From Caballeronia sordidicola (GTDB lineage: Bacteria; Pseudomonadota; Gammaproteobacteria; Burkholderiales; Burkholderiaceae): a stretch of DNA of 64,000 bases. A program made the translations under genes and the position numbers. The notes beneath the pieces are model-generated. The model did no database searches. It was not told the origin of the DNA and saw nothing but the letters and a program-made list of their open reading frames with translations. Below, in pieces: positions 1-33,394 of the stretch. Within the stretch, counting starts at the first letter, position 1. Every line of letters begins with the position of its first letter. Location: contig NZ_JNFG01000214.1 in assembly GCF_000729995.1 (NCBI RefSeq), forward strand, positions 1 to 64,000. The letters run 5' to 3'.

Positions 1-7
1 CCCCTAA

Positions 8-25
8 CCCCGCCCGCAGGCGGGG
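8..25. other. Short GC hairpin at the left edge
   Basis: A perfect 7-bp inverted repeat (CCCCGCC, 4-nt loop CGCA, GGCGGGG) sits at the very start of the window. No T-run follows on either strand, so it is not a classic intrinsic terminator. It may end a gene lying left of the window. Confidence 0.4.
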
Positions 26-97
26 AAGTCCTTGCCGCCGGACGGGCTCGGTGGCTGGCATCGAACAGCTATGCCAGCCACATGCCCTTGAGCGTCA

Positions 98-170
98 ATG
101 GTCAGATGGGCGCGTCAATGGTTCGCTGCGCCGGACGTTCCGTCCGCCATTGACCCGCCCATCTGACCAT
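98..170. repeat. Large nested palindrome (24-bp arms)
   Basis: The arm at 98-121 and the arm at 147-170 are inverted copies matching at 23 of 24 bases, separated by 25 bp. The spacer holds a smaller inverted repeat (CGGAC, 5-nt loop, GTCCG). This would form a long cruciform or hairpin. It lies beyond the terminator of the minus-strand gene at 252-977. No coding use is evident; it could be a mobile-element end, a recombination site or a processed RNA hairpin. Confidence 0.7.
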
Positions 171-191
171 GAAAGGTGAATGCAACTGACG

Positions 192-224
192 AAAAAAAGC
201 CCGCGTCTCAGGGAGATCGCGGGC
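192..224 (-). terminator. Intrinsic terminator of the 252-977 gene
   Basis: On the minus strand a 7-bp stem (GCCCGCG/CGCGGGC, arms at 218-224 and 199-205) is followed by a run of seven T. It lies 28 bp past the stop codon of the hypothetical gene at 252-977. Confidence 0.8.
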
Positions 225-251
225 ATTGTGTTGTGGTGGCAAGGCTGTCGC

Positions 252-977
252 CTACGCTTCGGAAATTGCAGCATCAAGTACTGCTGGCGTGATGTCCATC
301 AGCTCCAATCTACGACAGATCTCTGCATAGTCTGGGTCGACCCTCATACTCGTGAGTCCCCTGTCCTGCAACTCATGGAAAGCCTGATACCCGCTGTCCC
401 GTCGCTGGATTAGCAGCCCTTCTGCATTGCGAGAAACGACTACCACACCGCCGACTGCTGAGGTACGGTAGAAGATTCCGTAGATCTCATCCGTCAGTGG
501 GAATCGCCCTTCGGAAGGTTCAAAGAAGCAGTAATATCGCTGCAGTGCGAGTAGCCAGGGGGTGTCGGTCGGCGCTTGCAGCATACAGATTCGGCTGAGT
601 GCGCCTCCTGAAACGCGAAACCCTTTTGACTCGAGTGCACGACAGCGCTCCGCAAGCTCGAGCGCGTCGCGTCTGCTCTCGGCAGGATCGCTGTGCGAGT
701 AATGCTCGATCTGCCTGCCCTTCCAGAACACGTACCCTTGATGATCACGAGTCAGATGCACTATGCCGTGAAACCAGTGACGCGTGGTTGCATACGCTCC
801 CGAAATTACCGAGCTATGGAGCTTTTCGAAAAGATCCCTGCCCGCCTCGTTCAACGCACCGTTTACCGCCTGTTCGACGAGTTTGAGGTCTCTCGCCTCC
901 AACGTGTCGCCATCGCGGGTTCGCTGAAGAATCTCGATTGCTTTGTCTGCAACTTCAACCTGTACGCTTCCCATCAT
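252..977 (-). CDS. Hypothetical protein, 241 aa
   Basis: I do not recognise the family. The reading frame could start further upstream, but that stretch runs into the terminator of the preceding gene. The start at 977 (tandem ATG ATG) has a good AGGAG ribosome-binding site 5 bp upstream, so I chose it. The protein is acidic and soluble-looking, with no signal peptide or membrane segment, and has a mixed helical N-terminal half. It is a single-gene unit, flanked by an intrinsic terminator on each side. It shares a similar leader with its minus-strand neighbour at 1089-1706, which suggests common regulation or a common origin. Confidence 0.6.
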   Translation of the reverse strand: MMGSVQVEVADKAIEILQRTRDGDTLEARDLKLVEQAVNGALNEAGRDLFEKLHSSVISGAYATTRHWFHGIVHLTRDHQGYVFWKGRQIEHYSHSDPAESRRDALELAERCRALESKGFRVSGGALSRICMLQAPTDTPWLLALQRYYCFFEPSEGRFPLTDEIYGIFYRTSAVGGVVVVSRNAEGLLIQRRDSGYQAFHELQDRGLTSMRVDPDYAEICRRLELMDITPAVLDAAISEA

Positions 978-1040
978 TCGATCTCCTGAAAGTAAGTCCG
1001 CGGCTGCGGACAATGAACTGAGCCCAGGAGATGTGAGGAC

Positions 1041-1073
1041 AAAAAAAACCGCGCTTCGAAAGGAAGCGCGGTT
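1041..1073 (-). terminator. Intrinsic terminator of the 1089-1706 gene
   Basis: A 10-bp perfect stem (AACCGCGCTT/AAGCGCGGTT, arms at 1047-1056 and 1064-1073) is followed on the minus strand by a T-run at 1041-1048. It separates the two minus-strand hypothetical genes. Confidence 0.85.
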
Positions 1074-1088
1074 CGTGGTTTGCAATCG

Positions 1089-1706
1089 CTAGGTTCTGTC
1101 ACTCTCGGCTGCATCGGTAAGATCCGACCATTCCTTCGCAAGATGTGCGATCGGATCATCTGGCTCGTCGACCATCTCACCATCCGCGACGCGAATCAGC
1201 AAATGTCCCTCGCCGGGCATTGCGCCCGGGTCGTACTCCATGCGACACCCTGCCGCGGCGAGCTCCTGCGCGATTGCTTCCCGGCGATCGATCGCATCGA
1301 CTCGTGATGCGGTGGCTTTTGATGGATGAGGTGCAGCGTCCGCCGCTCTCCTGGCAACCAGGGTAGCGGTGCTGCGCACGAAATGGTGCGAATCATCTAA
1401 CAGCGCGCGCTGTGCATCGGCGTTGCAACGCGTGAAGAGCAGATCTGCGACAAGGGCGCGGGCGCCCCAATCCAGACCATGGAGATGCGCTGGCGAGATC
1501 TCGGGTAACAGTGCCAAGTGCCTTACTTCCATTTCACGCAGGTCGTACAACTTCCCGACGAACTCCGCTGGCATGCTGCCCTTTCTAGGGTATCGGTCGC
1601 GCAGCGCCTGGGACGAAAGCACTACGTCTGAGTTCAACCCTCCGTCGACCGAACCTGCTATTACAATCGCTACCCCGCTCGCCCGAATGTTCGTTTCGCT
1701 GCTCAT
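1089..1706 (-). CDS. Hypothetical protein, 205 aa
   Basis: The product is a soluble protein with no membrane segment and no motif I can name. The ATG at 1706 has an AAGGA-like ribosome-binding site about 9 bp upstream. The gene ends just before its own terminator. Downstream on the same strand lies another hypothetical gene with a similar leader. The central region is Ala/Arg-rich and the C-terminus is acidic. It could be an accessory or phage-derived protein; nothing in the sequence decides this. Confidence 0.55.
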   Translation of the reverse strand: MSSETNIRASGVAIVIAGSVDGGLNSDVVLSSQALRDRYPRKGSMPAEFVGKLYDLREMEVRHLALLPEISPAHLHGLDWGARALVADLLFTRCNADAQRALLDDSHHFVRSTATLVARRAADAAPHPSKATASRVDAIDRREAIAQELAAAGCRMEYDPGAMPGEGHLLIRVADGEMVDEPDDPIAHLAKEWSDLTDAAESDRT

Positions 1707-1765
1707 TGAGAAATGTCCTTGTGTAAGCCAGTGCTACCGGGCGATGAACTAAGCACAAGGAATGT

Positions 1766-1794
1766 CGCGACAAAGAAAAGTCGCGTTGAGTTTT
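1766..1794. other. Hairpin with T-run upstream of the 1912 gene
   Basis: A 6-bp stem (CGCGAC/GTCGCG, 8-nt loop) is followed on the plus strand by TTGAGTTTTTT. It lies in the divergent spacer between the genes starting at 1706 (minus) and 1912 (plus). The sequence around it resembles the leader of the 252-977 gene. It could be a weak terminator or attenuator. Confidence 0.4.
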
Positions 1795-1911
1795 TTGTGG
1801 CGGCGCATATCCGAACGCCATGTATATGATTGCGCTCACGCACGCTGGATGAACCTGTCTGGTATGGCGGAAAGGCTGGCGACCGGAGCGCTTCTACGGA
1901 GAAAAACAGAT

Positions 1912-2367
1912 ATGCTTGAAGGTGTAATGTGGTTGTTCATCAACCTCGTGCTTCCAGTCATCGCACCCATTTTGGGTATGTGGCTGGAAATCGTGTCCGC
2001 GCGTAACATTCGGGACGACGCTGAGAGGTTGGACGCGCTCAGAAGACGCCGGATCGTCATGCTGTTCAAGGACGGGCAGCTTGGATGGGTCGGCCTGCTG
2101 ATGTGCTTTGCGGCCGTCTCCGATACGCTCGACGGCATCAGAAAGCACGGACTGCCCAACTGGGCGCCAGTGGTTTTCGTTGCGTTGCTCGGACTGGTTT
2201 ACACGAGCGGGTATTTCGCGACGAAAGGTGCGGTGGATACGGCTGACGCGCTGGACGGCTTTGCCTGGCGGACTTTCGCCAAGGACTATCCGACCGCGTT
2301 TTATACTATAATATTCACTGTGTTTTCTGCCGCATTATTTGGTTACGTCCACTTCTGGGCTCAATGA
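1912..2367 (+). CDS. Small integral membrane protein, 151 aa
   Basis: About four hydrophobic segments can be read: near residues 3-22, 48-62, 77-94 and 125-146. The loop after the first segment is charged (ERLDALRRRRIV). I chose the ATG at 1912 because a GGAG ribosome-binding site sits about 10 bp upstream, while longer in-frame starts run through the upstream hairpin. The family is unknown to me. It is followed after 10 bp by a second tiny membrane protein gene and a strong terminator, so the two form a small operon. Small paired membrane proteins of this kind occur in stress, toxin or phage-exclusion loci, but that is only a suggestion. Confidence 0.6.
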   Translation: MLEGVMWLFINLVLPVIAPILGMWLEIVSARNIRDDAERLDALRRRRIVMLFKDGQLGWVGLLMCFAAVSDTLDGIRKHGLPNWAPVVFVALLGLVYTSGYFATKGAVDTADALDGFAWRTFAKDYPTAFYTIIFTVFSAALFGYVHFWAQ

Positions 2368-2377
2368 GGATCCGACT

Positions 2378-2521
2378 ATGACTACCATCGCACATCGCCT
2401 TTTCCCTCGCGCGCATGGCAAGGAAGCCATGTTGTCGCTGTCCGCAGTCATTGCCGGCGCCGTCGGGTCCATAGCAACGATCGTCTTGATCGTAGGCGAC
2501 GTCCTGAAGCTCTGGCACTAA
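2378..2521 (+). CDS. Single-span small membrane protein, 47 aa
   Basis: The peptide has a basic N-terminus (TTIAHRLFPRAHGKEA) and one hydrophobic helix near residues 19-40, and ends in KLWH. The ATG has a GAGGA ribosome-binding site 7-8 bp upstream that overlaps the end of the preceding gene. An intrinsic terminator follows 48 bp after the stop. It is likely co-expressed with the membrane protein before it. The function is unknown. Confidence 0.55.
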   Translation: MTTIAHRLFPRAHGKEAMLSLSAVIAGAVGSIATIVLIVGDVLKLWH

Positions 2522-2568
2522 ACCCGCCTCGCAGCCCCTATGGGTTGCTAAGCCAAGCTATACCAAAA

Positions 2569-2600
2569 AGCCGCCCCATGCACGGGGTGGCTTTTTTTTG
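2569..2600 (+). terminator. Intrinsic terminator
   Basis: A 9-bp stem (AGCCGCCCC pairing with GGGGTGGCT, one G-T pair) is followed by eight T. It closes the two-gene membrane protein operon at 1912-2521. Confidence 0.9.
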
Positions 2601-2926
2601 TCGCACACCTCGATACCGCGCTGACAAAGCCATTTGGGGTGCCTTCAGGATCCGGACGAAAACGTACGTCAGCCGCTCGTAAAGCCTTACTGGGGAAAGA
2701 TCAGACCTTCCACAGAAACAGAAACCATGACGCCAACACGTGCGAAGTTAAGTCTTTGATTTTATTGATTGTGCACCGCAGCCGTCGTAAGAAAAAATCC
2801 GAATCCTGAAGTCATCCCTGCAGCAACACCCTTTTTCTTCGAGCCGCGACGTTCGAAACAAGCCGAGAACACTTTGCGCCCTGCGTTTCGCCAGGCCAAT
2901 GATAGACACGCTGCGCATCGCCTATA
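2601..2926. other. Intergenic region without a supported gene
   Basis: Open frames exist on both strands but lack convincing ribosome-binding sites or protein-like composition. The region ends in the promoter and LexA box of the next gene. Confidence 0.5.
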
Positions 2927-2942
2927 CTGTATATCCATACAG
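2927..2942 (+). promoter_or_regulatory. LexA (SOS) box
   Basis: The 16-mer CTGTATATCCATACAG matches the proteobacterial LexA consensus CTGT-N8-ACAG exactly in both half-sites, with an AT-rich centre. It lies 19 bp before the ATG at 2961 and overlaps a plausible -10 element (TATACT). The gene behind it should be induced by DNA damage. Confidence 0.85.
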
Positions 2943-2960
2943 CTTTTGTGATGCAGAATC

Positions 2961-3272
2961 ATGTCGCTCAAAATCGAGGATTTCGAGCCCGTCTCCAATG
3001 GAGACCTGCGTGATCTATGGCGGATTTGCCGCGATCCAGCCCTTCGTCGGCTAATCCTAGAGGTGGTGCGCTACCGGCGCGTCATAGACAGAGCGCATGC
3101 TGAGGCGCTGGAAATTCATTACGGCCTGGGAGCAAATAACCAGGGGAAAATTGTTGGTGTTGCGAAGTCGCTATTAGCTCGCCTACAAGACGAGCACGTC
3201 CGACTCGGATCACAAGGTGGCATCATGATCAAATTGCCGACGGACGGTCAATATGCCGGTAAGCGTTGGTGA
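2961..3272 (+). CDS. Putative SOS-regulated hypothetical protein, 103 aa
   Basis: This small helical protein has an Arg-rich segment (RRLILEVVRYRRVIDRAH) and a basic C-terminus. I do not recognise the family. The ATG has only a weak ribosome-binding site, but a near-perfect LexA box directly precedes it. It converges on the SRAP-family gene at 3301-3975, with only 28 bp between the stops. The context points to a DNA-damage role; the biochemical function is open. Confidence 0.6.
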   Translation: MSLKIEDFEPVSNGDLRDLWRICRDPALRRLILEVVRYRRVIDRAHAEALEIHYGLGANNQGKIVGVAKSLLARLQDEHVRLGSQGGIMIKLPTDGQYAGKRW

Positions 3273-3300
3273 ACCAAGGATGTGCCGCACAACCGTAGCT

Positions 3301-3975
3301 CTACAGGAGCGATTCGTTCACCTCAGACTTCGGTTTCGGGCGCCGCGGTGGAATCGGCGCAGGCGCGGCGGCCATCTCGTTAGCGGGAAACAGGTTTAGG
3401 AACGAACGTGCCTCGTCCGTTGTGCGACAACCAAGCCAGTCTTGGTATTGCTCAGGCCGCAGGATGATCACCGATCGCTTCTCGGCCCCCGGCTTATGAA
3501 AGCGCCGCATGAGCTCATGGTTCTCGGCATTGACGGTAAGCATCGAAAACGACAACGAAGGGCCGTCTGGATCGTTCCAAGCGCGCCACAGGCCGGCAAG
3601 AGCGAGTGGCTGGCCAGAGCCCAAGCCGATCCGCCAGCGCACCGGCGATCCGGTCTCATAGTTCGGCTCGTAAAAACTGCGACACGGGATCAGGCAGAGC
3701 TGGAGGTTCTTCCATGCTCCGCTGAAGCTGCGCTTCTCCCCGATCGACTCAGCGCGTGCATTCATCGTGTCGAAAAGCTTCACACCCTTGGGAATGTGCT
3801 TGCGCGGCACAATGCCGAAGGTGGCAGGATTGGTCAGCCGCTCACCGCCGTCCATGCGCAGGATGGGCGCCGCGTAGTCTTTCCACGTCTCAGGTGGATA
3901 ATCAAAGGTCGGACGCGGAAATTCGCTGAATGCCTCGAAATCGATTTCTTTAGATGGATCGTAGTTTGCGCACAT
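3301..3975 (-). CDS. SOS response-associated peptidase (SRAP/HMCES/YedK family), 224 aa
   Basis: SRAP proteins form a thiazolidine crosslink with abasic sites in single-stranded DNA through Cys2. Here the protein starts Met-Cys-Ala-Asn-Tyr, giving the required Cys2. Other family landmarks are visible: NARAES near residue 70, PCRSFYEPNYE near 100 with the active-site Glu, and the conserved His in RFHKPGAEKR near 160. Length is typical. Cleavage of the initiator Met is needed to expose Cys2. The family is often linked to SOS genes, which fits the LexA-box gene next door, although I see no LexA box before this gene itself. It starts at 3975 behind a CAGGAGGTGG site. Confidence 0.93.
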   Translation of the reverse strand: MCANYDPSKEIDFEAFSEFPRPTFDYPPETWKDYAAPILRMDGGERLTNPATFGIVPRKHIPKGVKLFDTMNARAESIGEKRSFSGAWKNLQLCLIPCRSFYEPNYETGSPVRWRIGLGSGQPLALAGLWRAWNDPDGPSLSFSMLTVNAENHELMRRFHKPGAEKRSVIILRPEQYQDWLGCRTTDEARSFLNLFPANEMAAAPAPIPPRRPKPKSEVNESLL

Positions 3976-4032
3976 GGGCCACCTCCTGCCTTAATGATAG
4001 CGCTGAGTTAGGCCGTTTTTCGGAGAGACATC

Positions 4033-4422
4033 ATGGACCCGACTGACCTTCCGGACGCAACCCTCGACTACTGGGTCGAACGAGCGGAACTGCTCCGTTT
4101 AAACCCGCGCGCGTCCGCGGTCGATATCGCCAGCATTTCCCACTGGCCGCGATACACACTGAATCCTGAACTGGCGGAGCCAATCATCGAGCGCGCACAG
4201 ATCGTCATCGATGAGATCGATGATCCGGGGCGCGGAATTGTTTTTTTTGCACGCCGGCCGCATGCCGAGCCAGTTTCGATCTTCGTAGATCACCGCGAGT
4301 TCCATGGCGATACCTACCTCGACGCGGCCATGATCTGCTACATCGCGTCGGTCTTTGGGCCAGAAGTTGAATATCAATTGCTCTGGGATGACGGAACATC
4401 GCGCTATGAGCCGTATGAATAG
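4033..4422 (+). CDS. DUF2591-like phage-type protein, 129 aa
   Basis: The N-terminus (LDYWVERAELLR) and the C-terminal half (D-rich stretch before YEPYE) resemble the DUF2591 family found in lambdoid and other phages (NinX-like). The start has a GGAGAG site 7 bp upstream. The role of that family is unknown. Its presence hints at prophage-derived DNA in this part of the window. The stop lies 66 bp before the next gene on the same strand. Confidence 0.6.
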   Translation: MDPTDLPDATLDYWVERAELLRLNPRASAVDIASISHWPRYTLNPELAEPIIERAQIVIDEIDDPGRGIVFFARRPHAEPVSIFVDHREFHGDTYLDAAMICYIASVFGPEVEYQLLWDDGTSRYEPYE

Positions 4423-4488
4423 ATTCGCAGCAGGCTTTGTGGCAAGAAGATTGGTTGATTCGCCGCCGCGCGCGGCAGGGAGATAAGC

Positions 4489-4767
4489 ATGACGCACGAA
4501 GAATTCGGGGCACACGTCGCCATGTTGCTGCGTGATCAGCCGCGCGGTACAACTGCAGATCTGACTGACTTCGCGGTTGCCTACTGGGACGACAAGCGAG
4601 TGCGCTACGTGTTCCTTCACGAAGACGGCCAAGACGCGCTCGACGAAGAACTCGACCTGCCTGATTATCTACTCGATCAGTGGGAAGTTGACTTCGCTGT
4701 CTGGTCCTCGGAGCCGCATTATTCGTTGCGGCCGCAGCTGCTTCGGTGGCTCAAGGCTGGTGCGTAG
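4489..4767 (+). CDS. Hypothetical acidic protein, 92 aa
   Basis: This short acidic protein is rich in Asp/Glu (EDGQDALDEELDLPDY) and Trp, and has no signal peptide. The ATG has a GGGAGATAAGC ribosome-binding site. It probably shares a transcript with the DUF2591-like gene. I do not recognise it. Confidence 0.5.
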   Translation: MTHEEFGAHVAMLLRDQPRGTTADLTDFAVAYWDDKRVRYVFLHEDGQDALDEELDLPDYLLDQWEVDFAVWSSEPHYSLRPQLLRWLKAGA

Positions 4768-4940
4768 GATCGCATCCGAGGCGACCCCCGTGCAACTCGG
4801 TTACCCGAGCCGTACAGAAAAACTGAGGACGCTTCTCGATCGTTGAGGCCGGGAAATCGCCATCATCCGTATGCCCCAACGGCCAGGTTCGGATGTGACC
4901 GTACTGAAAACGCGTGCGGACTACAACGAGGCGAGCCAGT

Positions 4941-7900
4941 TTATAGCGGCCTACGATCGAGACGCTGACCGCTGAGACTCGTGGTAGCCGAGGTTCCAGA
5001 TTGGGGCTGTGCCTCCGTCGCTCGCGTGAGCGGTGCCTGCCAGATCACGTACAGTTTGCTCACCGGTCCGTTGCCACGCTCGTAGCCGTAGAACGTATCG
5101 CCCTTGTCAAGCGCGACACAATATGGCAACCCCGGCTTTTCCGGACCATCAAGGGCACCCATGTGCAAGAACGCCGTTCTCCGATCGACTGCCCGCGCAC
5201 AGATTTTCTCGACGTATCGGTACATGTCATCTCGGTTTGACATGTAATGCTGACCGTCGTCGTCGGCAGGAAATGCCATAGCCGCCAGGTCGTTGTCCTG
5301 CGCGATCTGTATGCCGACTTCGACGAACGATTGCACGACTGAGTCGGCCTCGTACTGCGCGTCCGCCGCGTTGACCGTGTTGATTGCACGCATCACCAAG
5401 GTTGCGCGATGCGGGTCGATCGGATCAATGCGTTCAACGTAGAGCATCGCCATGCCGACCAGCCGCCTGCTCACCGGGTTAAACACCACCAGATGCGACT
5501 GGCGCTCTTCGCGCCACATGCGCACGTTATCCGCCGAGCACAATTTCGTCGCCACCTTCGCGAAGTAAGCCGCCGGATATTTTGACATCGATGACTGGTA
5601 TTCAACTTCGCTGGCCTTCTCAGACGGTCGACCCTTGAACGCGCTGACCTGCCGGTGTGCCCACGTCCCGTAAATCCCGCGTGCACGCGCCCCGATTTCA
5701 CCGAGCACCACAATCAGCCGATCGCGCGGCACCCTACTATCATCAGCCACCGGCGCCCCGGCGAGACGCATCACCAGATACCCGGCGGCCTCCTCGGTCA
5801 GCCTCGCAGCGACGGTCGTACCATGCTCCGAGATCGCATCGTGCAACTCGACATCGAAAAAGTCCGCTACCTGTTTAGCCGCGGCATGCCGCCGGTCGAC
5901 GTCATTCGCATGCATTTCAAGCGTCTCGATATGGGTCAGCAGCCTGTCCACCCTGTCGGCTGGAATCACACCAAGCAGCACCCCGAGGTGACGATGGAAA
6001 GTCTGCGGACTCACCGACTGTCGCGAGCAGTCGCGCAGTTGCTTGGGCGACAGTCGGTAGCATGCGTTAGACATGTCTCCGTCGGCCTCTCGACGGAACG
6101 TCGCGCCATATCCGATCGCGGCCCGGATCGCACGTAGTCCCGCTGAATCGATCGGTCGCTTCAACTCAACTGGCTTGCGACGCCACTTCATCATGTAATG
6201 GTTACGTTTTACGAGATGGTCAAGATGCTGCACGAGCCCCGCCGCTCTCGACCATCGCTGGTCTCCTTCTCCCAACTCGATCCCATATACGGCCGTGACA
6301 GCTTCAGCCTCCAACTGCGACAGCGCCGCACCGGAAGGTCCCTGTCCCCTCAGCAGCGACTCCACTTCCACGCGAAACGCGGCGAGTTGCCGTTCATATT
6401 CCTGCGCACCGGCAAGGTAAGCACCAATCAGGCTGGCAGCCAGCATGCCGCCCGTTGCGTCCAATTGCGGCTGGATCCCGGGCAGGATACGCACTTCGAT
6501 GTCCAATTCAAGTGCATGCCAGCGGCGCCAGTAGATCGTGCACGCCGGCTCGTCGTTGAACGGCAACTGCCCGAGCAAATGACGGCACGCAGCGGACGAC
6601 GCTCTCGAGACCGCCGCAAGATTACCCTGAACGAAGAAACAGTTGCCGCGGGCGCAGGCATCGTCCAGCAACAACCGCGAAACAGGCTTTTGCCAGCTCA
6701 CCCAGCCAACTTGCTCGATACCGCGTGAAGCGCGCTGCCAGGCACGCAAGGCGTGCACCGTTCGCAGCTTTCGCGCCTCAGCCGCATACTCAAGTAGACT
6801 GCGATCGATCTGTGCCAATTGCCGGACTTCATCGAACGCAGGCAAGTCCGGCACCGGCAGAATCGAAACCAGGTACTCAAATGCATCGATGCGATTCGCT
6901 CCGATGTTGCCAACCCATTCGGCCACCGTTTCGGGCACGGACGATGTATTGCGCAGCGCGCAATACATCGACAGGAGTCGGTCCAGATTCCGCGAGGCCA
7001 CGCCGTTCGCGTACAGGTGTTGGAACGCCAGCACACCCGCCGGCGCACCAAACCCGTAGCGCTCGAGCACGCCGAGGAACGACGCCAGATCGTCGTCGCT
7101 TCTCTGGATCACATATGCGCGGCACGCCACAAGCTCATTGAAACCGAGCGAATGCGGCGGCGAACACAACAGATCGATAGATCGACGCGGGTCACGATCG
7201 CGCTCGCGCATCTGCAGCATAAGGGACTGGAGGCCCGAAAGGTCGTCAAGCGACGCGCCCCGCGTGCGCAGTTCGTCCACGGTTTCTTCGTTCGGCAACG
7301 CCTCGACTTCCAGAACCCTGCTGAACAACGGCCACTGCTCCGGTTCCTTCGCGCCGATCACGTCAATCACGAAATGCCAGTTGCGCGGTCGTGCTTTCCA
7401 GAGCAGCTCGACCAGCAGTTCGAAAAGATGCGCCACATCGACGGCCCCCCGTTCGCCCAGCGTCCTGAGCGTGAGATCGAGCCCGGCCGGGTCGCAGTGC
7501 CGCCAGAACTTGAGCACCTTCAACGTCGCCCGACGAGGGACTCCGTGTTCGAGCAGTCGTCGAATCACCTGGGGCCCCCCGTCGGTCGATTCCACGTCCC
7601 AGTTGTAGCCGTGGTTTTGCTCGCGCCACGACTCAAGCCAGTGCAGTTCGTCGACCGAACGGATAACCTGAAGGTCGATCAACACGGCGAGTTTCCCCTG
7701 GGGAAAGCTGCGCGACATCCCGCAAAACACGGCCTGCAATTCCTCCGCCGTTTCAATCCCGAGGCGCCACGCATTGCGCGCAGTCACCACGTCGAAATAC
7801 TGCAGTTGCTCCAGCACGGCGTGGCTACGTGGTACCGTGAACTTGCGCACAATGAAGTCTAGTCCATCGCCGTAGTATGGCGTCTTTAGCAACGCAGGAC

Positions 7901-8372
7901 CGGCAAGCCGGTCGAAGATCAGCTCACGTCCTTCTGGCGTCCCCACCTCGCGAAGCCGATCCGCTGCCAGCCGAAGCGCCAATACCGGAAAGAATCCCGT
8001 CGCCAGAAATACGCCGATCTTCGCGGGCCAGGAAAGCCGCACTGGTACGTGATCTGGAATTCCTAGCGCGCGTCGGGCAAAGTCAGCGTCGGGTGACCGC
8101 GGCGCGCACAACTCATCGATACCGCTCGCGACCGACTCCCGAAATGCCTTGATGATCCGACGGCCGTAGGCAAGCCCACGTCGTGGCGCCTCATCGTACC
8201 CATACCGCGTACGCCGCGGCAAATCCGATCGCCCTTCATCCAGCCGCCACCTCGCGTACTCCGTCTCCAACTGCCGCTGTCGAAATGCACGATACGCACT
8301 TGTCTCATCCTGAGATTGAGATAGAGTGACGGTCGACTGAAGGCCGGAATTGTCGCTCGAGCATGTTGGCAT
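4941..8372 (-). CDS. Very large hypothetical protein, 1143 aa, GNAT-like C-terminus
   Basis: I do not recognise this protein as a whole. The first ~700 residues look like irregular helical repeats rich in Leu, Ala and Arg. Near residues 970-1080 a pattern like a GNAT acetyltransferase appears: a strand pair around HLVVFNPVSRRLVGMAML, then a helix VVQSFVEVGIQIAQDNDLA leading into AMAFPADD. That part is inference from hydrophobicity and spacing, not a clear acetyl-CoA loop. There are no membrane segments. A frameshifted remnant of another gene lies 12 bp before its start, so the gene may have inserted into or replaced part of an older operon. The ribosome-binding site at 8372 is weak, and the true start could be further inside. 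Confidence 0.6.
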   Translation of the reverse strand: MPTCSSDNSGLQSTVTLSQSQDETSAYRAFRQRQLETEYARWRLDEGRSDLPRRTRYGYDEAPRRGLAYGRRIIKAFRESVASGIDELCAPRSPDADFARRALGIPDHVPVRLSWPAKIGVFLATGFFPVLALRLAADRLREVGTPEGRELIFDRLAGPALLKTPYYGDGLDFIVRKFTVPRSHAVLEQLQYFDVVTARNAWRLGIETAEELQAVFCGMSRSFPQGKLAVLIDLQVIRSVDELHWLESWREQNHGYNWDVESTDGGPQVIRRLLEHGVPRRATLKVLKFWRHCDPAGLDLTLRTLGERGAVDVAHLFELLVELLWKARPRNWHFVIDVIGAKEPEQWPLFSRVLEVEALPNEETVDELRTRGASLDDLSGLQSLMLQMRERDRDPRRSIDLLCSPPHSLGFNELVACRAYVIQRSDDDLASFLGVLERYGFGAPAGVLAFQHLYANGVASRNLDRLLSMYCALRNTSSVPETVAEWVGNIGANRIDAFEYLVSILPVPDLPAFDEVRQLAQIDRSLLEYAAEARKLRTVHALRAWQRASRGIEQVGWVSWQKPVSRLLLDDACARGNCFFVQGNLAAVSRASSAACRHLLGQLPFNDEPACTIYWRRWHALELDIEVRILPGIQPQLDATGGMLAASLIGAYLAGAQEYERQLAAFRVEVESLLRGQGPSGAALSQLEAEAVTAVYGIELGEGDQRWSRAAGLVQHLDHLVKRNHYMMKWRRKPVELKRPIDSAGLRAIRAAIGYGATFRREADGDMSNACYRLSPKQLRDCSRQSVSPQTFHRHLGVLLGVIPADRVDRLLTHIETLEMHANDVDRRHAAAKQVADFFDVELHDAISEHGTTVAARLTEEAAGYLVMRLAGAPVADDSRVPRDRLIVVLGEIGARARGIYGTWAHRQVSAFKGRPSEKASEVEYQSSMSKYPAAYFAKVATKLCSADNVRMWREERQSHLVVFNPVSRRLVGMAMLYVERIDPIDPHRATLVMRAINTVNAADAQYEADSVVQSFVEVGIQIAQDNDLAAMAFPADDDGQHYMSNRDDMYRYVEKICARAVDRRTAFLHMGALDGPEKPGLPYCVALDKGDTFYGYERGNGPVSKLYVIWQAPLTRATEAQPQSGTSATTSLSGQRLDRRPL

Positions 8373-8384
8373 AGGCGGGTCTCG

Positions 8385-8570
8385 CTATAAGGTCAAGTGC
8401 GTGGCCGCTACTAATTCGTTTTCCGCCGCGGTGCACAGCCAGCGTGCAACGGTGGCGGTACTGGTCATTTTATCAATGAGCAGGTGATCAACGCGTTCGT
8501 GCAGCTTCCGGCTCCGCACGCGTAGCGCATCCACCTCGGCAGTCGTCTGGCGCCGCACAGTATTGGTCAT
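8385..8570 (-). pseudogene. Frameshifted 3' remnant of a coiled-coil gene
   Basis: Translated from 8570 the first ~35 codons match the C-terminus of the coiled-coil protein encoded at 16327-17175. About half of 32 residues are identical, including TAE-DALR and ER-D-LL-D. After the Asp-Lys codons the original frame continues as gibberish, but a shift of one frame restores DQYR followed by GGK, as in the intact gene. This is therefore a 5'-truncated, frameshifted copy. It lies directly before the 1143-residue gene. Confidence 0.75.
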
Positions 8571-8962
8571 TCAACGAATCCCTAGACCGGCACTCTCGAC
8601 GCTCAACACTTCGCGCGCTATGCTCGGCCTCTATGTTGAGCGCTTAGACAAAGCGGCCCTACCCTTTCGCTAACGGCAAACACCATGCGCATGATTCAAA
8701 TCGGCCCCAATGTTGCGTTCGCCGCCGTCGTGCTTTCGCCGGAGTGGAACGGTATAGCGACCGGCGACTTTAGGCCCGCCCCGGCGCAGGTTGGCAGCTC
8801 AGCCCGCGTAGTGGCTCCGAGCACGGCAAGAACGACGAATCCGACCCACGAAATCGAGCAACTCGGCTTGATCTAATGGCAATCGGGTTTACGCATTGCG
8901 GTAGCGTTAAGGCGCAGCCAATGCAAATCTCTATAACCGTGCACCCGTCATTTCAACCACCG

Positions 8963-9613
8963 ATGACCGATATCGATACCGACACCAACGGGGCAGCAGC
9001 GCCGCCCCGCTATCGCTCGTGGGCAGAACGCGAAGCGGCACAACGCGCGGCACAAGACGCTGAGCGTGATGCGCTCTCGCAACGCATTCAAGCGTCCCGT
9101 GCCAGTCAGAACAGACACGAGCGCGAAGGCTCTCAACGCAGGCAACTCACCGACATTCAGGTATTCCGCGCCCTGATGCTGGATGTCCTGGAACACCCAC
9201 TCGCCAAAACGAAATCGCCTCGATCAGGCTCATTCGCTTCGTTTAAAAGTGTCTGCTCGTTGATTAAGCAACGTAGCGGCGAGGATCCAAGTTTTCTGGC
9301 GCCGGGCCTCAGTCAAAATCTGCCGTTCTTCCACAAAATGATATCAACACCCGCCGCTTGGATCGCGGTCGCAGACCAGCTCGCCAACAATACAAGGGCC
9401 GGCCTCACACGGGAGATGACTGCACTCGGACCCTTCGCAGGATTGAGAGTCAGCATTCGTTCGATCCTGGTGAATGCGGGTATCAACGACGTCGTTCAGT
9501 TACGTGGTGCAATCGCCGAAGGCTCGATCGTGCTCGATCACGACATTTCGAGCAATGGATTGACCCGCCGACGTTGGACAGAATTGCTCGATTGGATCGA
9601 CCGGCAAGCGTAA
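8963..9613 (+). CDS. Hypothetical protein, about 216 aa
   Basis: The frame is open from 8876. I chose the ATG at 8963 because the upstream residues are low-quality, but no strong ribosome-binding site supports any start. The N-terminal third is a charged helix or coiled coil (RSWAEREAAQRAAQDAERDA). The rest looks globular and ends near an Arg/Trp-rich helix (LTRRRWTELLDWIDRQ) that could bind DNA. The family is unknown. It converges with the minus-strand operon ending at 9783. Confidence 0.45.
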   Translation: MTDIDTDTNGAAAPPRYRSWAEREAAQRAAQDAERDALSQRIQASRASQNRHEREGSQRRQLTDIQVFRALMLDVLEHPLAKTKSPRSGSFASFKSVCSLIKQRSGEDPSFLAPGLSQNLPFFHKMISTPAAWIAVADQLANNTRAGLTREMTALGPFAGLRVSIRSILVNAGINDVVQLRGAIAEGSIVLDHDISSNGLTRRRWTELLDWIDRQA

Positions 9614-9782
9614 ACCACGCAGCCTGCAGATTTGCCCTCAATACGTCGATGAGATCTTGCGCCAGACGCGGGTAGCTTTGCGGGCAGATGATGGAAAATT
9701 CTGCCTAAATCCTGAAGACACATCAGGCTGACCGCAACGAACAGCAGTCACGAAGGCTAAGCACTTTGGCCATCCCGACTGG

Positions 9783-12053
9783 TCACGGTTCCCGGCGCGG
9801 CGAGCCAAAAACTCCATTTGCAATCGCCTGCGCAACGCAAACCACGATAGTTGGCAACTGTTCCCGACACGCTTCGATTTTCTCGATAACTTTTCGTATG
9901 TCATCCGCATCAAGCCGGATACGGCCCATGCCCAATGCAAGGACAAATTCCGAGAGCGCCTCACCCGTCTGCTCTTGCGCGCCGTCGATCATCTTCATCA
10001 AAAGATCGCGCAACTGATTGCTGAAACTCTCGGTGTGTGTAGCCACGTAGTTGAGTTCGTCGCCACTGCTCGCCCTCAAAATGGCCGCTTGGATAACACC
10101 GTCATTGAAGCGGACAAAATTGTCTGGCGCGAGCACCCGGCGCTCATACTCGCTACAGCGAAGTCGGTCCGGACCTTCTGAATGACGAAGATTATTTAAC
10201 AGGCAAGACACAACAACGAAAATGTCTGCCTGGCTCAATGACTGTTTCCCGTCGCGTGTGGGAAGAAGTACGAAGTTCGAGCGAATTTGTAAGGCCTCGC
10301 CAGCGTACGCTGGCCAGAACAGGTCGCTCGTCATTCCTTGCGCGCTTGCATTGGCGAGGACACTTCGACGGCGAGTCAATTCGACGGGAATCTCCAAGTC
10401 TTCCGCCTCAAGCCAATCCGAAACCGCCGTCAGATAAAGCAGCTCAGACTCCCATGGATCAACGGCGCGATCATCCGGTAAGAGCAGATCGTGGATTTTG
10501 TGAAGCGAGTGAGTGTTCGCTCCTCGGTCTCCAAAAGTCAGATTTGTGCAAACCGACTTGATATCCTTCGGTGTCTTGGCGCGTACAAAGGGCGCGAAGT
10601 AGATCACGTTGCCGCCTGGAACAACGGTTCGCAAATCTCGACTGATGCCCATCATCTCGATTGCGTTGTCTATGCAGGGTGTGACGACCAGTGCCGCGCC
10701 TTCGGGCACCGGGTCGGAACCGTAGACTGCCACGCCTCGCTTTTGCACAACCTTAGCCATGTCGAGATACTGGCGCCCAAACGCCGCAACAGTCTTGAGC
10801 AATTCGCTAGACCAAGGGTACTCGGGCGAAATTAAATGTGAGACATTCGCTGGCACGTGACGGCGAAGCATCCGATCCCACGATTCACGGAAGCTAACTG
10901 CAGCAGTCTCTTCTGCATCTAGTAGAGACCCCAAGTCCACGGAGATTTCGCTGGTGCGATCGCCAATTCTTTTGTGGACGCGAAACAACCCTATCCCGGC
11001 ATACCCGCCCAACAACTTATATTGCTCCTCAGGCAGGTGCTTCTTGACCAACGTAATGCCAACGGACCTGGGAAGCGCCGTAAGAAAGAGATCGCCGCCG
11101 ATCTGGATCGGGGAAGAACCGCCTTTACAGAGCGAGCAATCGTCAGGTTTATAGCTTTCAATGAGAGCAAGTCCGTCGGGATTCGAGGCGGTCTTCGCCA
11201 CGTTGCATAAACTGTCTTGATCATTCTGCTCGTTCGCCAGCAGAAAGACTGTCAATAGCCTATTCCGGGGCACACGTCGCTGAAGGGCTTCACGGGCGAG
11301 GTTGCCCGAACTGCTCGCCGAAATGACGAAGAGCGTCTGATCTATCGCGCTTAGATCCTCATCGGATAGGCCTTCGTATGATTGAAACGAGTCGATCACC
11401 GGCATTTGCGCCTGCGATCCACTCGAGACTGCCATTGCGCAGCCCGCATAGACCAGCGACGCGATGGCGGAGGTGTCAACCAAGATTCGCTGGGTAGTCT
11501 GCGATAAGAAGCTTTGTAGCCAGTATGCGAGTGTCAGCGTGTCACCGGAACGGACCAGCGCGTTTGAAGCACGTATAAACGAATCGCTGTGAGCGCCAGA
11601 GGTTTTGCTGAAATGAATTCCGCGCGGCGCGACCTGCAGGCATTTCCGCGATTTAAAGATCGACTGGCTTGTCATCTGCCTGGCGAAATCAGCCTCCCGC
11701 TGCGGGTCCACCAGATAGCCTGCTGCACCAGATAACAAGGGCTCGAAACCCTTTCCGTCTCTCTCAACCAGGACTCCAAAGCACTTATTTTCTGCGTTGC
11801 TTCCCCACGCCTTCGATAGGCGAATCATAAACGGAGAGTTTATTTCCAATACAGATGCAATGAATTGCCTATTTGGTTGAAGACCGAATAGCACAACCTT
11901 TGAAGGAGCCAGGTTCTCACGAAGATGCGCCGATAGGGTTCTGGTGAGCGCTTCAATATCTTGCTCGCTTGAGTGAAGCACAATGCTCAGTTGCGTCTCT
12001 GAGTCTGCTGTATGAGTCTCACGTCGATGTTCGTACAGTGCAAAACCTGCCAT
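9783..12053 (-). CDS. Partner of GHKL ATPase with degenerate PRTase-like segment, 756 aa
   Basis: This is the second gene of a two-gene operon. Its ATG overlaps the upstream stop codon by one base (TGATG), so translation is probably coupled; this decides the start at 12053. Residues about 145-250 have the shape of an orotate phosphoribosyltransferase: GIHFSKTSGAHSDSFI, then ILVDTSAIASLVYAG, then a strand-loop LFVISASSSGN. In active enzymes that loop reads DD-TTG-T and binds PRPP. Here the two Asp are missing, so catalysis is unlikely unless the fold is used differently. A CSLC motif follows near residue 330. The C-terminal half is unrecognised. No membrane segment is seen. The pairing suggests a signalling or defence role, which is inference. 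Confidence 0.6.
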   Translation of the reverse strand: MAGFALYEHRRETHTADSETQLSIVLHSSEQDIEALTRTLSAHLRENLAPSKVVLFGLQPNRQFIASVLEINSPFMIRLSKAWGSNAENKCFGVLVERDGKGFEPLLSGAAGYLVDPQREADFARQMTSQSIFKSRKCLQVAPRGIHFSKTSGAHSDSFIRASNALVRSGDTLTLAYWLQSFLSQTTQRILVDTSAIASLVYAGCAMAVSSGSQAQMPVIDSFQSYEGLSDEDLSAIDQTLFVISASSSGNLAREALQRRVPRNRLLTVFLLANEQNDQDSLCNVAKTASNPDGLALIESYKPDDCSLCKGGSSPIQIGGDLFLTALPRSVGITLVKKHLPEEQYKLLGGYAGIGLFRVHKRIGDRTSEISVDLGSLLDAEETAAVSFRESWDRMLRRHVPANVSHLISPEYPWSSELLKTVAAFGRQYLDMAKVVQKRGVAVYGSDPVPEGAALVVTPCIDNAIEMMGISRDLRTVVPGGNVIYFAPFVRAKTPKDIKSVCTNLTFGDRGANTHSLHKIHDLLLPDDRAVDPWESELLYLTAVSDWLEAEDLEIPVELTRRRSVLANASAQGMTSDLFWPAYAGEALQIRSNFVLLPTRDGKQSLSQADIFVVVSCLLNNLRHSEGPDRLRCSEYERRVLAPDNFVRFNDGVIQAAILRASSGDELNYVATHTESFSNQLRDLLMKMIDGAQEQTGEALSEFVLALGMGRIRLDADDIRKVIEKIEACREQLPTIVVCVAQAIANGVFGSPRREP

Positions 12054-13237
12054 CAGGCCTCCACCGGAATTAACACCGACACGGTCGCCCCGGTAACTGG
12101 GCCGAGCGCACTTGGCTTCGAGGAGACGCCTTTCTGCCAATCCATGAGAACTGCTTCCGTCTCACTTAAGGGCGTGGTGGGCAACATGTGGAAATCACGG
12201 TAAAGGCAAATCCGATTGGTTCGGATGCGAATAAATCCGTTGAGCGCTCGCAGTGCGCGCAACACATCGGTTAAGCCCAAGCCTCGGTTTGGGTTTCTGG
12301 CGGTGCTGTGTCCAGACCGCAGGCATTCCAGGACAGCCCTGTACTCCACGTCTATGTCGCCTTGCGGATCGACTTGCTTGCGAAGCCAGCTTCCAACGAA
12401 TCCCGGACCGCTATCCAGTACCGAAAATTCGAGGATGCCACGGAACTTCTTCTTCGTCTGCGAGCGCATTGTCGCTGCGCCCTCGGATTGGAAGGACTTT
12501 ATAAAGGCAAGGTGAGGTGCAAGCGGCACGCTGGATTTTTTATTCACCACAACGGCAATGTTTTCGATCGGATAAAACCGCGAAAAAAATACCCTTACGG
12601 AATTTTCGATCGCCCGACCTTCGGCATCAAAAAGTGCGTGATCTTGGGTATTCTTCATGAGCTCAAAGAGCAACGTTGTAAGCAACGGATTTTGCTCTTC
12701 GATCACTCCCGTGAGTTCCTCGGCGGCCATGACGCTACCAATCATCGACGGTACGAACTGCTCGAAATGCTTGTCGTTTTTCAGCAGCCGGTCAGCATTA
12801 AAGAGAGGCGCGGGTAGCCCCTTACTGTAACCGTCATCACAAATCAGGAACGAGGTGTCCATGCGCGCGAGGTCAGGCCACGATCTCAATTGTTCGAAGT
12901 AATCGTTTCGAATACTTCGGAGCGCTTTCCGATCCGTGGGCCGGAACTCCGATCTGCCCAAAATGATGAGCACCAGTCCGAGCATGCTTGTTGCCAGCAC
13001 ATGGTCCGCATCGCCTGGAAGTTCGGTTATCTGCAATATTTGGCCAATATCGGCCGGGCTGAGTGCGCGGAACCAGCTCAGAAGAGCTTGTACCCGCGAA
13101 ATCTCCTCTATAGGAAATTGCGCCGTGTTCCCGACGTCTGAGACGTCTAAGCGAAACGTCTTTGCAAAGTTTGCTCCAGATCGAGAAATCGAGCTGACAA
13201 ACTCCTCAAAATCATCGATTGTGCGTGGAAGATTCAT
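12053..13237 (-). CDS. GHKL (HATPase_c-like) ATPase, 394 aa
   Basis: The Bergerat-fold motifs are clear. The N-box at residues 189-201 (LLFELMKNTQDHA) has the Mg-binding Asn, the G1 box is DSGPGF at 275-280, and the G2 box is NRGLGLTDV at 317-325. A region of about 185 residues without named domains precedes the ATPase. There is no transmembrane segment and no His-kinase phosphoacceptor block, so this is not an ordinary two-component kinase. The closest general class is the MutL/Hsp90/anti-sigma kinase-like GHKL group. It is the first gene of the operon and overlaps the 756-residue partner. The plus-strand gene at 13399 is transcribed divergently. Confidence 0.8.
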   Translation of the reverse strand: MNLPRTIDDFEEFVSSISRSGANFAKTFRLDVSDVGNTAQFPIEEISRVQALLSWFRALSPADIGQILQITELPGDADHVLATSMLGLVLIILGRSEFRPTDRKALRSIRNDYFEQLRSWPDLARMDTSFLICDDGYSKGLPAPLFNADRLLKNDKHFEQFVPSMIGSVMAAEELTGVIEEQNPLLTTLLFELMKNTQDHALFDAEGRAIENSVRVFFSRFYPIENIAVVVNKKSSVPLAPHLAFIKSFQSEGAATMRSQTKKKFRGILEFSVLDSGPGFVGSWLRKQVDPQGDIDVEYRAVLECLRSGHSTARNPNRGLGLTDVLRALRALNGFIRIRTNRICLYRDFHMLPTTPLSETEAVLMDWQKGVSSKPSALGPVTGATVSVLIPVEA

Positions 13238-21548: not shown

Positions 21549-22028
21549 TTATTGTGCGCTTTTTTCCGGCGGGGCCGTTGCGCTTTGGCCGGACGCGGAA
21601 GTGTCTGCTTTTGCTTCAACGCCGCGGACGTCGTCCACGTCGAGACGTTGTATGCCTTGCAATATCGTGCAACTCGATCGACTATCGCCCGCGCACTGTT
21701 GCACGAGCTGATCAAGCGAATCGCGCATGGACGTCAATTCGGCTATCTGAGCATTCAGTTCCGCTACGTGTTTCAAGGCAACCGCCTTGACATCGGAACT
21801 GGCTCGGTCCTCATCTCGCCATAAGGCAAGCAAATGCCTGACGCGTTCGATGGAAAAACCGAGCGCGCGAGTCTGTCGAATGAAGCGCATGACGTGAACG
21901 TCGCTTTCCTTATAGATCCGATAGCCGCTCTCAGCACGTCCATGTGGTTGTATCAAATCGATACTTTCGTAGTACCGAATCATCTTGACCGACATACCGG
22001 TAGCCTTGGCGGCTTCTCCGATGTTCAT
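21549..22028 (-). CDS. cueR: MerR-family Cu(I)-responsive regulator, CueR/HmrR-like, 159 aa
   Basis: The N-terminal MerR helix-turn-helix is clear (MNIGEAAKATGMSVKMIRYYE), as is the wing RYYES through SGYRIY. A dimerisation helix follows. Metal binding is indicated by CAGDSRSSC near residues 112-120, the C-x7-C loop typical of Cu(I)/Ag(I)/Au(I) sensors. These regulators twist 19-bp-spacer promoters to activate efflux genes, and three such promoters are present in the window. A second copy of this family lies at 23429-23878. The C-terminal tail here is long and low-complexity. Confidence 0.9.
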   Translation of the reverse strand: MNIGEAAKATGMSVKMIRYYESIDLIQPHGRAESGYRIYKESDVHVMRFIRQTRALGFSIERVRHLLALWRDEDRASSDVKAVALKHVAELNAQIAELTSMRDSLDQLVQQCAGDSRSSCTILQGIQRLDVDDVRGVEAKADTSASGQSATAPPEKSAQ

Positions 22029-26859: not shown

Positions 26860-28185
26860 ATGCATTTCCAACATTTCACGTCGATCATCCGACGTGAGCC
26901 GCTGCGTTGCCTCGCTTTGGCAGCGGTCGTTATGTTTTCCAGTAGCGCAGCGCACGCTCAAGACGCAGGCATGACACTCGACGCGGCGCTTCAAATAGCG
27001 ACCAGCCGTTCTTCCTCGATCCAGGCGTCGGAAGCCGCAGTTCGGGGCAGTTCAGACGTCGTCGTCAAAGCCGGGCAACTACCCAATCCCACGTTGAAGT
27101 TGAGCGTCGAGGACTTGCCTATCAATGGGTCACAGGCCTTCACGATCGGGCAGGACAATTTCACGATGCGCGGTATTGGCATCGAGCAGGAATGGGTATC
27201 TGCGGACAAGCGCCGATTACATACAGCGTTGGCGGATCGCGCCGTAGAGCGCGATAAATCGACCTACCTGCAAAAAGTCGCAGAGGTCCGGCAACAAGCG
27301 GCCATGGCCTGGCTGAACGCTATCTATGCAAAAAAGGCCGTCGCCTTGAGCCAGGCCCTGGTCGACCATCTGAGCCAGGAACTTACCGCCAGACAAGCGT
27401 CGTACCGCGGTGCAAAAGGCACGGCGGTGGACGTCGCCCAAGCCAGCCTCACGCTCGGGAACGCACGTGATGAACTGATTAACGCGCAGCAGGACGAGAA
27501 GACTGCGTTGATTGCCCTGTCGCGTTGGACGGCGGCAGGTAACGTTCTGGAGGTCGCTGGAGACCCACCGGACCTGGAATCACAAGTGTCCAGTTTAAGC
27601 GTCGAGCAGCTCGATCAAGTTCAGCCTGATCTGATCGCCGCACGCTCCGCCATCTCATTGGCCGATGCCGGCACAGACGTTGCCCGAAGCGATAGAAACC
27701 CGAATTGGACCTGGGGGTTGACCTATTTCAAGCGGGGCGGAAATTTCTCGGACTACGTGTCGTTCGGTGTCTCCATCCCTCTGCCGATCAACCGTAGAAA
27801 TCTCGAGGATCGCGACGTCGAGCAAAAATCGGAAATGGGCACGCAAGCACGGCTCACTTACGAAGACACCGAGCGACAGGTCGTAGCCGATATCCAAAGC
27901 CTGACGGCAAAACTCGCCAGCGGTCGGGAACGTTTAGCGAACGTGAAGCAAACCGTTCTACCCGCCGCGGCACAGAAAGTGGCACTGGCAAACGCAGCCT
28001 ACCGGTCCGGTGCCGCCACGCTCTCCGATGCATTGGACGCGAGGCACACGCAGCTCGAAGCGGACCTTCAAGTGTTGAATCTCGAACGACAAGTCTCCCT
28101 GGTCTGGGCCCAGTTGGAATACCAGGTTTTGCCGCCTGACTTGACCGCCAGCCAAGCCAGCCAAGCCAGCCAAGCCAGCCAATAA
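26860..28185 (+). CDS. cusC: Outer-membrane efflux protein, TolC family (CusC-like), 441 aa
   Basis: This is the outer-membrane channel of a tripartite RND pump. A signal peptide (ending SSSAAHA) is followed by two TolC-type repeats with long helices, for example around residues 95-170 and 280-370. Length fits the family. It is followed 11 bp later by the adaptor gene, so the genes form one operon. The C-terminus carries a short tandem repeat (Ser-Gln-Ala units) not expected in the family. The substrate, Cu(I)/Ag(I), is inferred from the neighbouring CusA/CusB/CusF-type proteins. Confidence 0.88.
   Translation: MHFQHFTSIIRREPLRCLALAAVVMFSSSAAHAQDAGMTLDAALQIATSRSSSIQASEAAVRGSSDVVVKAGQLPNPTLKLSVEDLPINGSQAFTIGQDNFTMRGIGIEQEWVSADKRRLHTALADRAVERDKSTYLQKVAEVRQQAAMAWLNAIYAKKAVALSQALVDHLSQELTARQASYRGAKGTAVDVAQASLTLGNARDELINAQQDEKTALIALSRWTAAGNVLEVAGDPPDLESQVSSLSVEQLDQVQPDLIAARSAISLADAGTDVARSDRNPNWTWGLTYFKRGGNFSDYVSFGVSIPLPINRRNLEDRDVEQKSEMGTQARLTYEDTERQVVADIQSLTAKLASGRERLANVKQTVLPAAAQKVALANAAYRSGAATLSDALDARHTQLEADLQVLNLERQVSLVWAQLEYQVLPPDLTASQASQASQASQ
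28146..28184 (+). repeat. 9-bp tandem repeat at the cusC-like 3' end
   Basis: The unit AGCCAAGCC is repeated about four times in tandem, encoding Ser-Gln-Ala units just before the stop codon. In-frame 9-bp units can expand or contract without breaking the gene. Confidence 0.85.
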
Positions 28186-28195
28186 GGATAAAAAC

Positions 28196-32700: not shown

Positions 32701-32955
32701 GTGTTGGCAGGTCTCATCCCGATCATGCTCGGCCATGGTGCGGGGTCGGAGGTCATGCAGCGAATCGCCGCGCCAATGGTTGGCGGCATGGTGACCGCCC
32801 CGCTCCTGTCGATGCTGATCATCCCGGCCGCCTGGTTGCTGCTGCAACGCCGGAAGATTGCGCGCACCCAAACGAAACCTGAAGCACCGCTTCAACCTCA
32901 CGCAGTACCCACTGGCACGCTCGTGCCGCAAACTCAATCTGGAGAAAACCAATGA
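29737..32955 (+). CDS. cusA: Heavy-metal RND pump, CusA-like, 1072 aa
   Basis: The inner-membrane proton-driven pump of the complex. Length and layout (TM1 near residues 14-32, a large periplasmic domain, TM block 340-540, second periplasmic domain, TM block 880-1040) are those of HME-RND transporters. Family signatures include [10 protein letters not shown] near residue 41 and [17 protein letters not shown] near 567. Cu(I)/Ag(I) rather than Zn/Co/Cd specificity is inferred from the CusB and CusF neighbours. It overlaps both neighbouring genes by 4 bp, which indicates translational coupling. Confidence 0.95.
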
Positions 32956-33305: not shown

Positions 33306-33318
33306 CCGTCGGTAGGCG

Positions 33319-33365
33319 CCAAGGACGCGGCGACGCCTACTATGGTAGGCGCCGCTGTCCTTTGG
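33319..33365. terminator. Long hairpin between convergent operons
   Basis: Arms at 33319-33340 and 33345-33365 pair over about 20 bp with a few mismatches (CCAAGGAC ... GTCCTTTGG outer, GCCTAC/GTAGGC inner) around a 4-nt loop. It lies between the convergent cus-type operon and the minus-strand operon ending at 33395. No T-run is present, but the stem could block transcription from both sides. Confidence 0.65.
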
Positions 33366-33394
33366 ACCGGAGCTGACAGATCGCGTTCGTACGA

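Follow-up and report, generated by a model that had tools for sequence, protein, structure and literature searches.

PADLOC carries candidate defence systems labelled PDC, a list that reportedly originates with Payne and colleagues. The label stands for phage defence candidate, as given in the accessible part of a published description (PMC11514479). In VcSduA (Shedu type I-D / paraMORC3), a GHKL ATPase was proposed to control the effector, according to the available part of the paper (PMC12137116). We analysed 64,000 nucleotides of Caballeronia sordidicola (NZ_JNFG01000214.1, assembly GCF_000729995.1, positions 1-64,000), here called the window, which contain two adjacent genes on the same strand, A and B, that overlap at TGATG and match the two models of the PADLOC candidate PDC-M65. 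Each protein had one PADLOC match, A to PDC-M65A (2.2e-32) and B to PDC-M65B (2.2e-113); the candidate models are PDLC04764/PDLC04765, and B was matched over residues 1-736 and A over residues 103-393. Other known GHKL defence systems were ruled out, giving no PADLOC match at an expectation value (E) up to 1, and neither protein matched Pfam or NCBIfam at E up to 1. A sequence-only reading of this DNA had known no named system of such composition, which has to be corrected because both genes match PDC-M65. Its proposal of an undescribed immune or signalling module stands in so far as PADLOC gives no description; the pair is, however, already listed as a candidate defence system. The name 'PDC-M65' is nowhere mentioned in the literature searched, and the accessible parts of papers on GHKL or histidine kinase-like ATPases or phosphoribosyltransferases (PRTases) in defence describe no such pair. 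In the accessible text on DefensePredictor, the validated systems include a thymidylate synthase and also a PRTase, and the predicted ones a HATPase (PMC13092281).

Membership of PDC-M65 is firm for a prediction, as is the fold content of B given below. We tentatively favour the reading that the pair is a two-gene anti-phage module of PDC-M65 type, with A as a GHKL switch and B as its PRTase-fold partner in a proposed sensing role, and an immune function is likely. This reading draws on the pair itself, its conservation and co-evolution, the predicted folds, the motif losses, the defence context of part of the family and a link to ThyX in one lineage. The genes are located as follows.

12053..13237, minus strand: gene A (PDC-M65A), GHKL ATPase, 394 residues
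9783..12053, minus strand: gene B (PDC-M65B), tandem PRTase-fold partner, 756 residues
12051..12055, minus strand: TGATG stop/start overlap, end of A and start of B

Both open reading frames (ORFs) and the overlap were verified as the sequence-only reading had reported them; the translational coupling that it also claimed is probable from this arrangement. GGTGGAGG sits immediately upstream of TGATG (12055-12051). The ORF caller starts B at an alternative TTG, giving 785 residues, and we take B to be 756 residues from the overlapping ATG, a length that fits the family. A divergent ORF at 13399 lies 161 bases from A. No sigma-70-like site was found upstream of A in a promoter scan, whose matches overall were no commoner than in shuffled sequence.

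A contig scan with the window protein alone found no relative, and a profile-guided scan gave 121 confirmed relatives, the best 80 of which were kept. Their sources include Pseudomonadota and Bacteroidota as well as an Acidobacteria, a Planctomyces and an Obscuribacterales record; the pair of locus L063 belongs to Noviherbaspirillum malthae. There were matches in 11 of 72,556 plasmid records and three relatives of B in viral contigs; phage records held no relative of B. A lies directly upstream of B in 101 of 105 loci with a B gene of at least 450 residues, counts that refer to loci and not to independent events because some are near-duplicates (e.g. L110/L118 and L078/L134). Among the 101, A is split into two frames in L060 and L065, and only its end is preserved in the available sequence of L071. 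The other four are L096 and L109, with an A end at the contig edge, L101, which starts at a contig edge, and L135, with a truncated B. The genes overlap by 1-8 nucleotides in 58 of the 101 loci and are separated by 0-12 nucleotides in 28; longer overlaps (-88 for the window) are an artefact of the ORF caller's early start. Distances between A proteins correlate with those between B proteins (r = 0.94, 97 pairs), and the conserved co-occurrence that had been proposed as a check was found. These 97 pairs, from loci with A of at least 350 and B of at least 600 residues, also served as the homologue set for A, whose features are listed below.

12863..13237, minus strand: N-terminal helical domain, residues 1-125; the structure matches listed cover ~125-394 only
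12650..12664, minus strand: N box ELMKN, residues 192-196; E192 and N196 in 97/97 homologues
12401..12415, minus strand: G1 box DSGPG, residues 275-279, from the homologue alignment
12275..12283, minus strand: G2 box GLG, residues 319-321, from the homologue alignment

A has the N, G1 and G2 boxes and, in its predicted structure, the Bergerat fold that together define the GHKL ATPase superfamily. E192, N196, D275, G277, G279, G319, G321, G383 and P391 are invariant in all 97 homologues. The only histidines conserved in more than half of them are at positions 136 (73/97) and 200 (67/97), both within the ATPase core; position 136 is Gly in the window protein, and His 200 belongs to the N-box helix. 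A full GHKL motif set without a kinase phosphoacceptor, as had been claimed, is therefore borne out. A histidine kinase or two-component system was ruled out, since A has no acceptor His or DHp domain, B is not a receiver, and neither matches Pfam or NCBIfam. The best structural matches of A are SpoIIAB and kinase CA domains. They argue against the quite improbable alternative in which A would act on DNA in the manner of MutL, MORC or topoisomerase VI B and B would be its DNA-processing partner, as does the fact that no nuclease or DNA-binding family was recognised in A or B.

B proteins fall into two groups. In a midpoint-rooted tree of 106 members, three form clade II (support 1.0), namely L046, which belongs to the window's family, the Rhizobium copy L177 and L181 on plasmid pHG1 of C. 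necator H16, against 103 others (clade I). The features of the window B, which models as four domains, include the equivalents of the phosphoribosyl pyrophosphate (PRPP) loop.

11694..12053, minus strand: N-terminal alpha/beta domain, residues 1-120; encoded as its own ORF in Spirosoma (L052)
11100..11684, minus strand: PRTase-fold domain 1, residues ~124-318, predicted fold
11301..11330, minus strand: PRPP-loop equivalent of domain 1, FVISASSSGN, residues 242-251, from the alignment
10476..11033, minus strand: PRTase-fold domain 2, residues ~341-526, APRT/OPRT-like, predicted fold
10629..10694, minus strand: PRPP-loop equivalent of domain 2, residues 454-475; the acidic pair reads T-P in the window B and D-D in all three sister-clade members
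9819..10238, minus strand: C-terminal helical domain, residues ~606-745, many near-invariant residues
10074..10112, minus strand: RFNDGVIQAAILR, residues 648-660; almost unchanged across clade I, with R660 in every member

The sequence-only reading had described B as a PRTase-like partner whose PRPP-loop Asp pair is lost. The fold and the loss at VISASSSGN (residues 243-251) were recovered; the single domain was superseded by two PRTase folds in the predicted structure. VISASSSGN is also not the counterpart of the canonical loop in the sister clade, which is the second loop, 454-475 (VVTPCIDNA in the window). In the window B, S-A stands in place of the acidic pair in the first PRTase domain and T-P in the second. 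Residues 245 and 246 are D or E in 0/104 members, and the domain 1 pair is lost in clades I and II alike. In domain 2, positions 458/459 are D-D in 3/3 clade II members and acidic in 0/103 of clade I. L046 (ILDDVLITGDR) and L177 (ILDDCYITGTR) resemble a canonical PRPP loop; the H16 sequence is IIDDVAYGSER. The RFND..Q motif occurs mainly in clade I. No further clade II member was found in a viral scan with the L046 B, nor in 397 genomes searched with the L177 B, a search that had no positive control and also missed the clade I B of G301. PADLOC covers clade II poorly: the H16 B has no match and the H16 A only one of 9e-6. Fold searches gave no identity for the N- and C-terminal domains, and a C-terminal profile compared with solved structures gave nothing convincing (best E 0.17, PaaA). 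PRPP synthetase, which packs two PRTase folds together, was not among the 50 PDB matches listed for B; one weak viral match had E 0.009. In Spirosoma L052 (8534-10887) the N-terminal domain of B forms its own overlapping ORF.

Neither PRTase domain of clade I should bind PRPP in the ordinary manner, as both lack the two acidic residues that hold its ribose. The pockets are nevertheless strongly conserved (D193, ISAS[ST]SG, R475), and D193, R475, R660 and E702 are kept in 106/106 members. We infer a switch by analogy with other GHKL proteins: A, which lacks kinase parts, would dimerise and close on ATP, and B, its obligate partner, in which the two PRTase-fold domains lie between an N-terminal and a helical C-terminal domain, would contact it. 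The PRTase domains may bind a phosphorylated ligand as a sensor, probably a pyrimidine nucleotide or precursor, whose occupancy infection would alter. An ATP-driven rearrangement of A and B might then set free a growth-stopping activity in the C-terminal domain (R660, E702). The same invariance could be that of catalytic sites, and B may instead be an effector with enzyme activity, adapted in its PRTase scaffold or in the C-terminal domain to act against a nucleotide or nucleic acid, with A only licensing it. Candidate sites would be the Ser/Thr-rich ISAS[ST]SG loop, D193, or RFND..Q....R with E702. Clade II, which keeps the domain 2 Asp-Asp and has little of the RFND..Q motif, looks as if the active site had moved. 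We hold this alternative to be possible and on the unlikely side, given that no catalytic motif was recognised and that the C-terminal profile found no convincing match among solved structures.

The proposed pyrimidine ligand relates to thyX, which adjoins the pair in 6 of the 105 loci, five times directly upstream and in Bosea downstream; the three linked ThyX proteins scanned were all above the NCBIfam cut-off. In the genome of L101, ThyX-A lies near a contig end (L160), followed by an apparent insertion sequence. With L101 counted via L160, ThyX is present in 7/7 members of one clade of the B tree (L051, L057, L058, L098, L101, L114 and L125; support 0.95). The clade II locus L177 has the order ThyX-A-B, and its ThyX shares 75-79% identity with six of the seven copies linked to clade I and 62% with that of Bosea. 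As similar ThyX proteins stand beside both kinds of B, thyX has remained associated with pairs of both clades. L177 retains the complete ThyX motif, RHRxxSxNExSxRY; the copies displayed from clade I loci carry an S-to-N change in it. Among 148 Rhizobium genomes, PDC-M65B is found in four and ThyX in seven; all four are among the seven, with the genes side by side (hypergeometric 1.8e-6), and three of the four overlap the 105-locus set (G301 is L125; G407 and G313 probably correspond to L051 and L058). ThyX is single-copy in 4/5 genomes searched, always as the pair-linked copy, and a Tardiphaga genome (L075) has the pair and no ThyX. ThyX as the sole host thymidylate synthase was ruled out, ThyA being present in 5/5 genomes tested and ThyX in only 7/148 Rhizobium genomes. 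A general association of ThyX with immune PRTases was rejected as well: ThyX stands beside PRTase-CE in 1/20 Rhizobium genomes having PRTase-CE (G329; G312 has both, unlinked), against 4/4 with PDC-M65B. One Rhizobium operon (L176, 3629-9998), an unrelated PRTase island, reads ThyX, DNA methylase, PRTase-CE (PF24390), ORC-CDC6-like ATPase (PF24389) and a 315-residue protein; in L160 (4030-8426, Hyphomicrobiales) a metallophosphatase, an ORC-CDC6-like ATPase and a 342-residue protein lie upstream of ThyX-A. Speculatively, and with little confidence, PDC-M65 might sense or attack the pyrimidine/thymidylate supply through its inactivated tandem PRTases. The ThyX of Hyphomicrobiales would then be a built-in bypass to thymidine monophosphate (or feed a reaction) while ThyA-dependent synthesis is disturbed, and clade II, with its domain 2 Asp-Asp, would still use PRPP. 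Both ligand sensing and the connection to thymidylate are proposals for testing.

Defence genes are common around part of the family. At 11 loci of the window's family, 140 of 156 neighbour proteins were scanned and matched 142 PADLOC families at 1e-10, related models being counted apart, against four families, one protein each, for 118 of 232 proteins scanned in 14 distant control stretches (10 from the same genomes, 4 from other genomes of the family). The 25 families listed near the family loci include LmuA/B, ZorB/C/D, JetC/D and methylases. Within six genes per side of the 105 loci, the recurrent neighbours by BLAST clusters are HsdM-like (11), HsdR-like (9) and HsdS-like (7) proteins; one example of each was scanned, HsdR passing its NCBIfam cut-off and HsdM and HsdS falling below theirs. 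Ten annotated plasmid loci carry the full pair, and defence-type neighbours were found in four of them: QatC/QatD in P. aeruginosa pBJ86, TIR proteins with multiubiquitin/ThiF in Rhizobium NZLR1, multiubiquitin/ThiF in Agrobacterium, and ThiF with nucleases in Spirosoma. The H16 pair, at 162815-166232 of NC_005241.1, adjoins AVAST type 1 genes. Enrichment near defence genes, suggested with the sequence-only reading, thus holds for part of the family and not for the window's own neighbourhood.

The module is patchily distributed. Within the window's family, PDC-M65B has matches in 19 of 299 genomes, which represent 7 of 25 genera and several of which show short pieces only; PDC-M65A matches 12 of 298, all within the 19. 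In the same family, L041, L042, L043, L044, L045 and L048 have C-terminal B pieces of ~75-180 residues, mostly in open frames and with no detectable A, which are either relics or a reused domain. L040 (10010-14385) has an intact A and a broken B, its N- and C-terminal pieces ~2.5 kb apart. Plasmid pSBC1_4 of Caballeronia SBC1 matches window 1-10195 in three pieces (39% of a 16-kb query, 94% identical) and retains only the last ~137 residues of B. Other genes follow beyond the break, including a DUF262 protein ~6 kb and an MmeI enzyme ~10 kb away, so the module has been lost or replaced there. The shared stretch includes a SOS response-associated peptidase (SRAP) gene (3301-3975). Elsewhere in the window, a minus-strand ORF of 1143 residues (4941-8372) gave no match at E up to 1 in Pfam, NCBIfam or PADLOC, nor at 0.001 in PHROGs, and 26860-39338 is a metal-efflux block with TolC-like, CusB-like (with a CusF-like end), CusA/CzcA-type pump, multicopper oxidase (CueO-like) and DsbD-like proteins.

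Several observations weigh against an anti-phage module built as proposed. Seven of the 19 genomes with B lack a PDC-M65A match, six having short B pieces only and G186 a divergent A that was detected with a profile built in the present analysis. Foldseek E values for B are ~1e-3 at best, a weak Pfam Pribosyltran match (0.008) occurs in 1 of 22 B members, and comparing B by sequence alone with Apt and PyrE of E. coli gave no significant result (probability <1%). The suggestion of a pyrimidine ligand draws on ThyX from a single order, and most members, including that of the window, have no adjoining ThyX. No defence neighbours were found in 6 of the 10 annotated plasmid loci, for which the gene table is incomplete, and no clear defence gene lies by the window pair, where 10 neighbours were scanned with one partial mad1 match (21549-22028, E 1.7e-9). 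These last two observations also favour a stress or metabolic signalling module, a nucleotide-pool sensor that rides mobile islands and is not itself anti-phage; PRTase folds are known as regulators in PurR and PyrR. Such a module is improbable, as the patchy distribution, fragments included, the defence-rich neighbourhoods at other loci and the loss on the sister plasmid, with DUF262 and MmeI beyond the break, all argue against it.

Under the favoured anti-phage reading, a database label without a description becomes a testable system with predicted folds and defined pocket residues. The Asp-Asp lost in clade I and kept in clade II is a natural contrast, and ThyX is a metabolic partner pointing to thymidylate. 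If the PRTase folds are sensors, the pair would be a GHKL-driven immune switch that reads the nucleotide pool, and the clade II copy on the H16 megaplasmid makes a native test feasible.

Compared with SpoIIAB and histidine-kinase CA domains, A stands in an operon where neither a kinase acceptor domain nor a receiver gene was found. VcSduA, according to the available part of its description, differs in being a single protein with a DUF4263 nuclease (PMC12137116), and the window A and B match no Shedu model. The PRTase-CE/ORC-CDC6-like operons (PF24390, PF24389) likewise place a PRTase protein beside an ATPase, in one Rhizobium copy also with ThyX; they differ from PDC-M65 in having an ORC-CDC6-like ATPase instead of GHKL and a single PRTase with an intact loop. 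PF24390 matched neither the window B (E up to 1) nor 22 aligned B members (0.1) nor the L177 and L181 B (0.05). Type I PRTases (PyrE, APRT) share the fold of the two B domains, and PyrE also resembles the F...SG..S..F stretch at the start of domain 1 (in a non-significant alignment), whereas clade I B lacks the PRPP-loop acidic pair in both domains and is a tandem fusion with two further domains. To PDC-M65 as listed in PADLOC, the present analysis adds the tandem PRTase content, clade II and the ThyX link.
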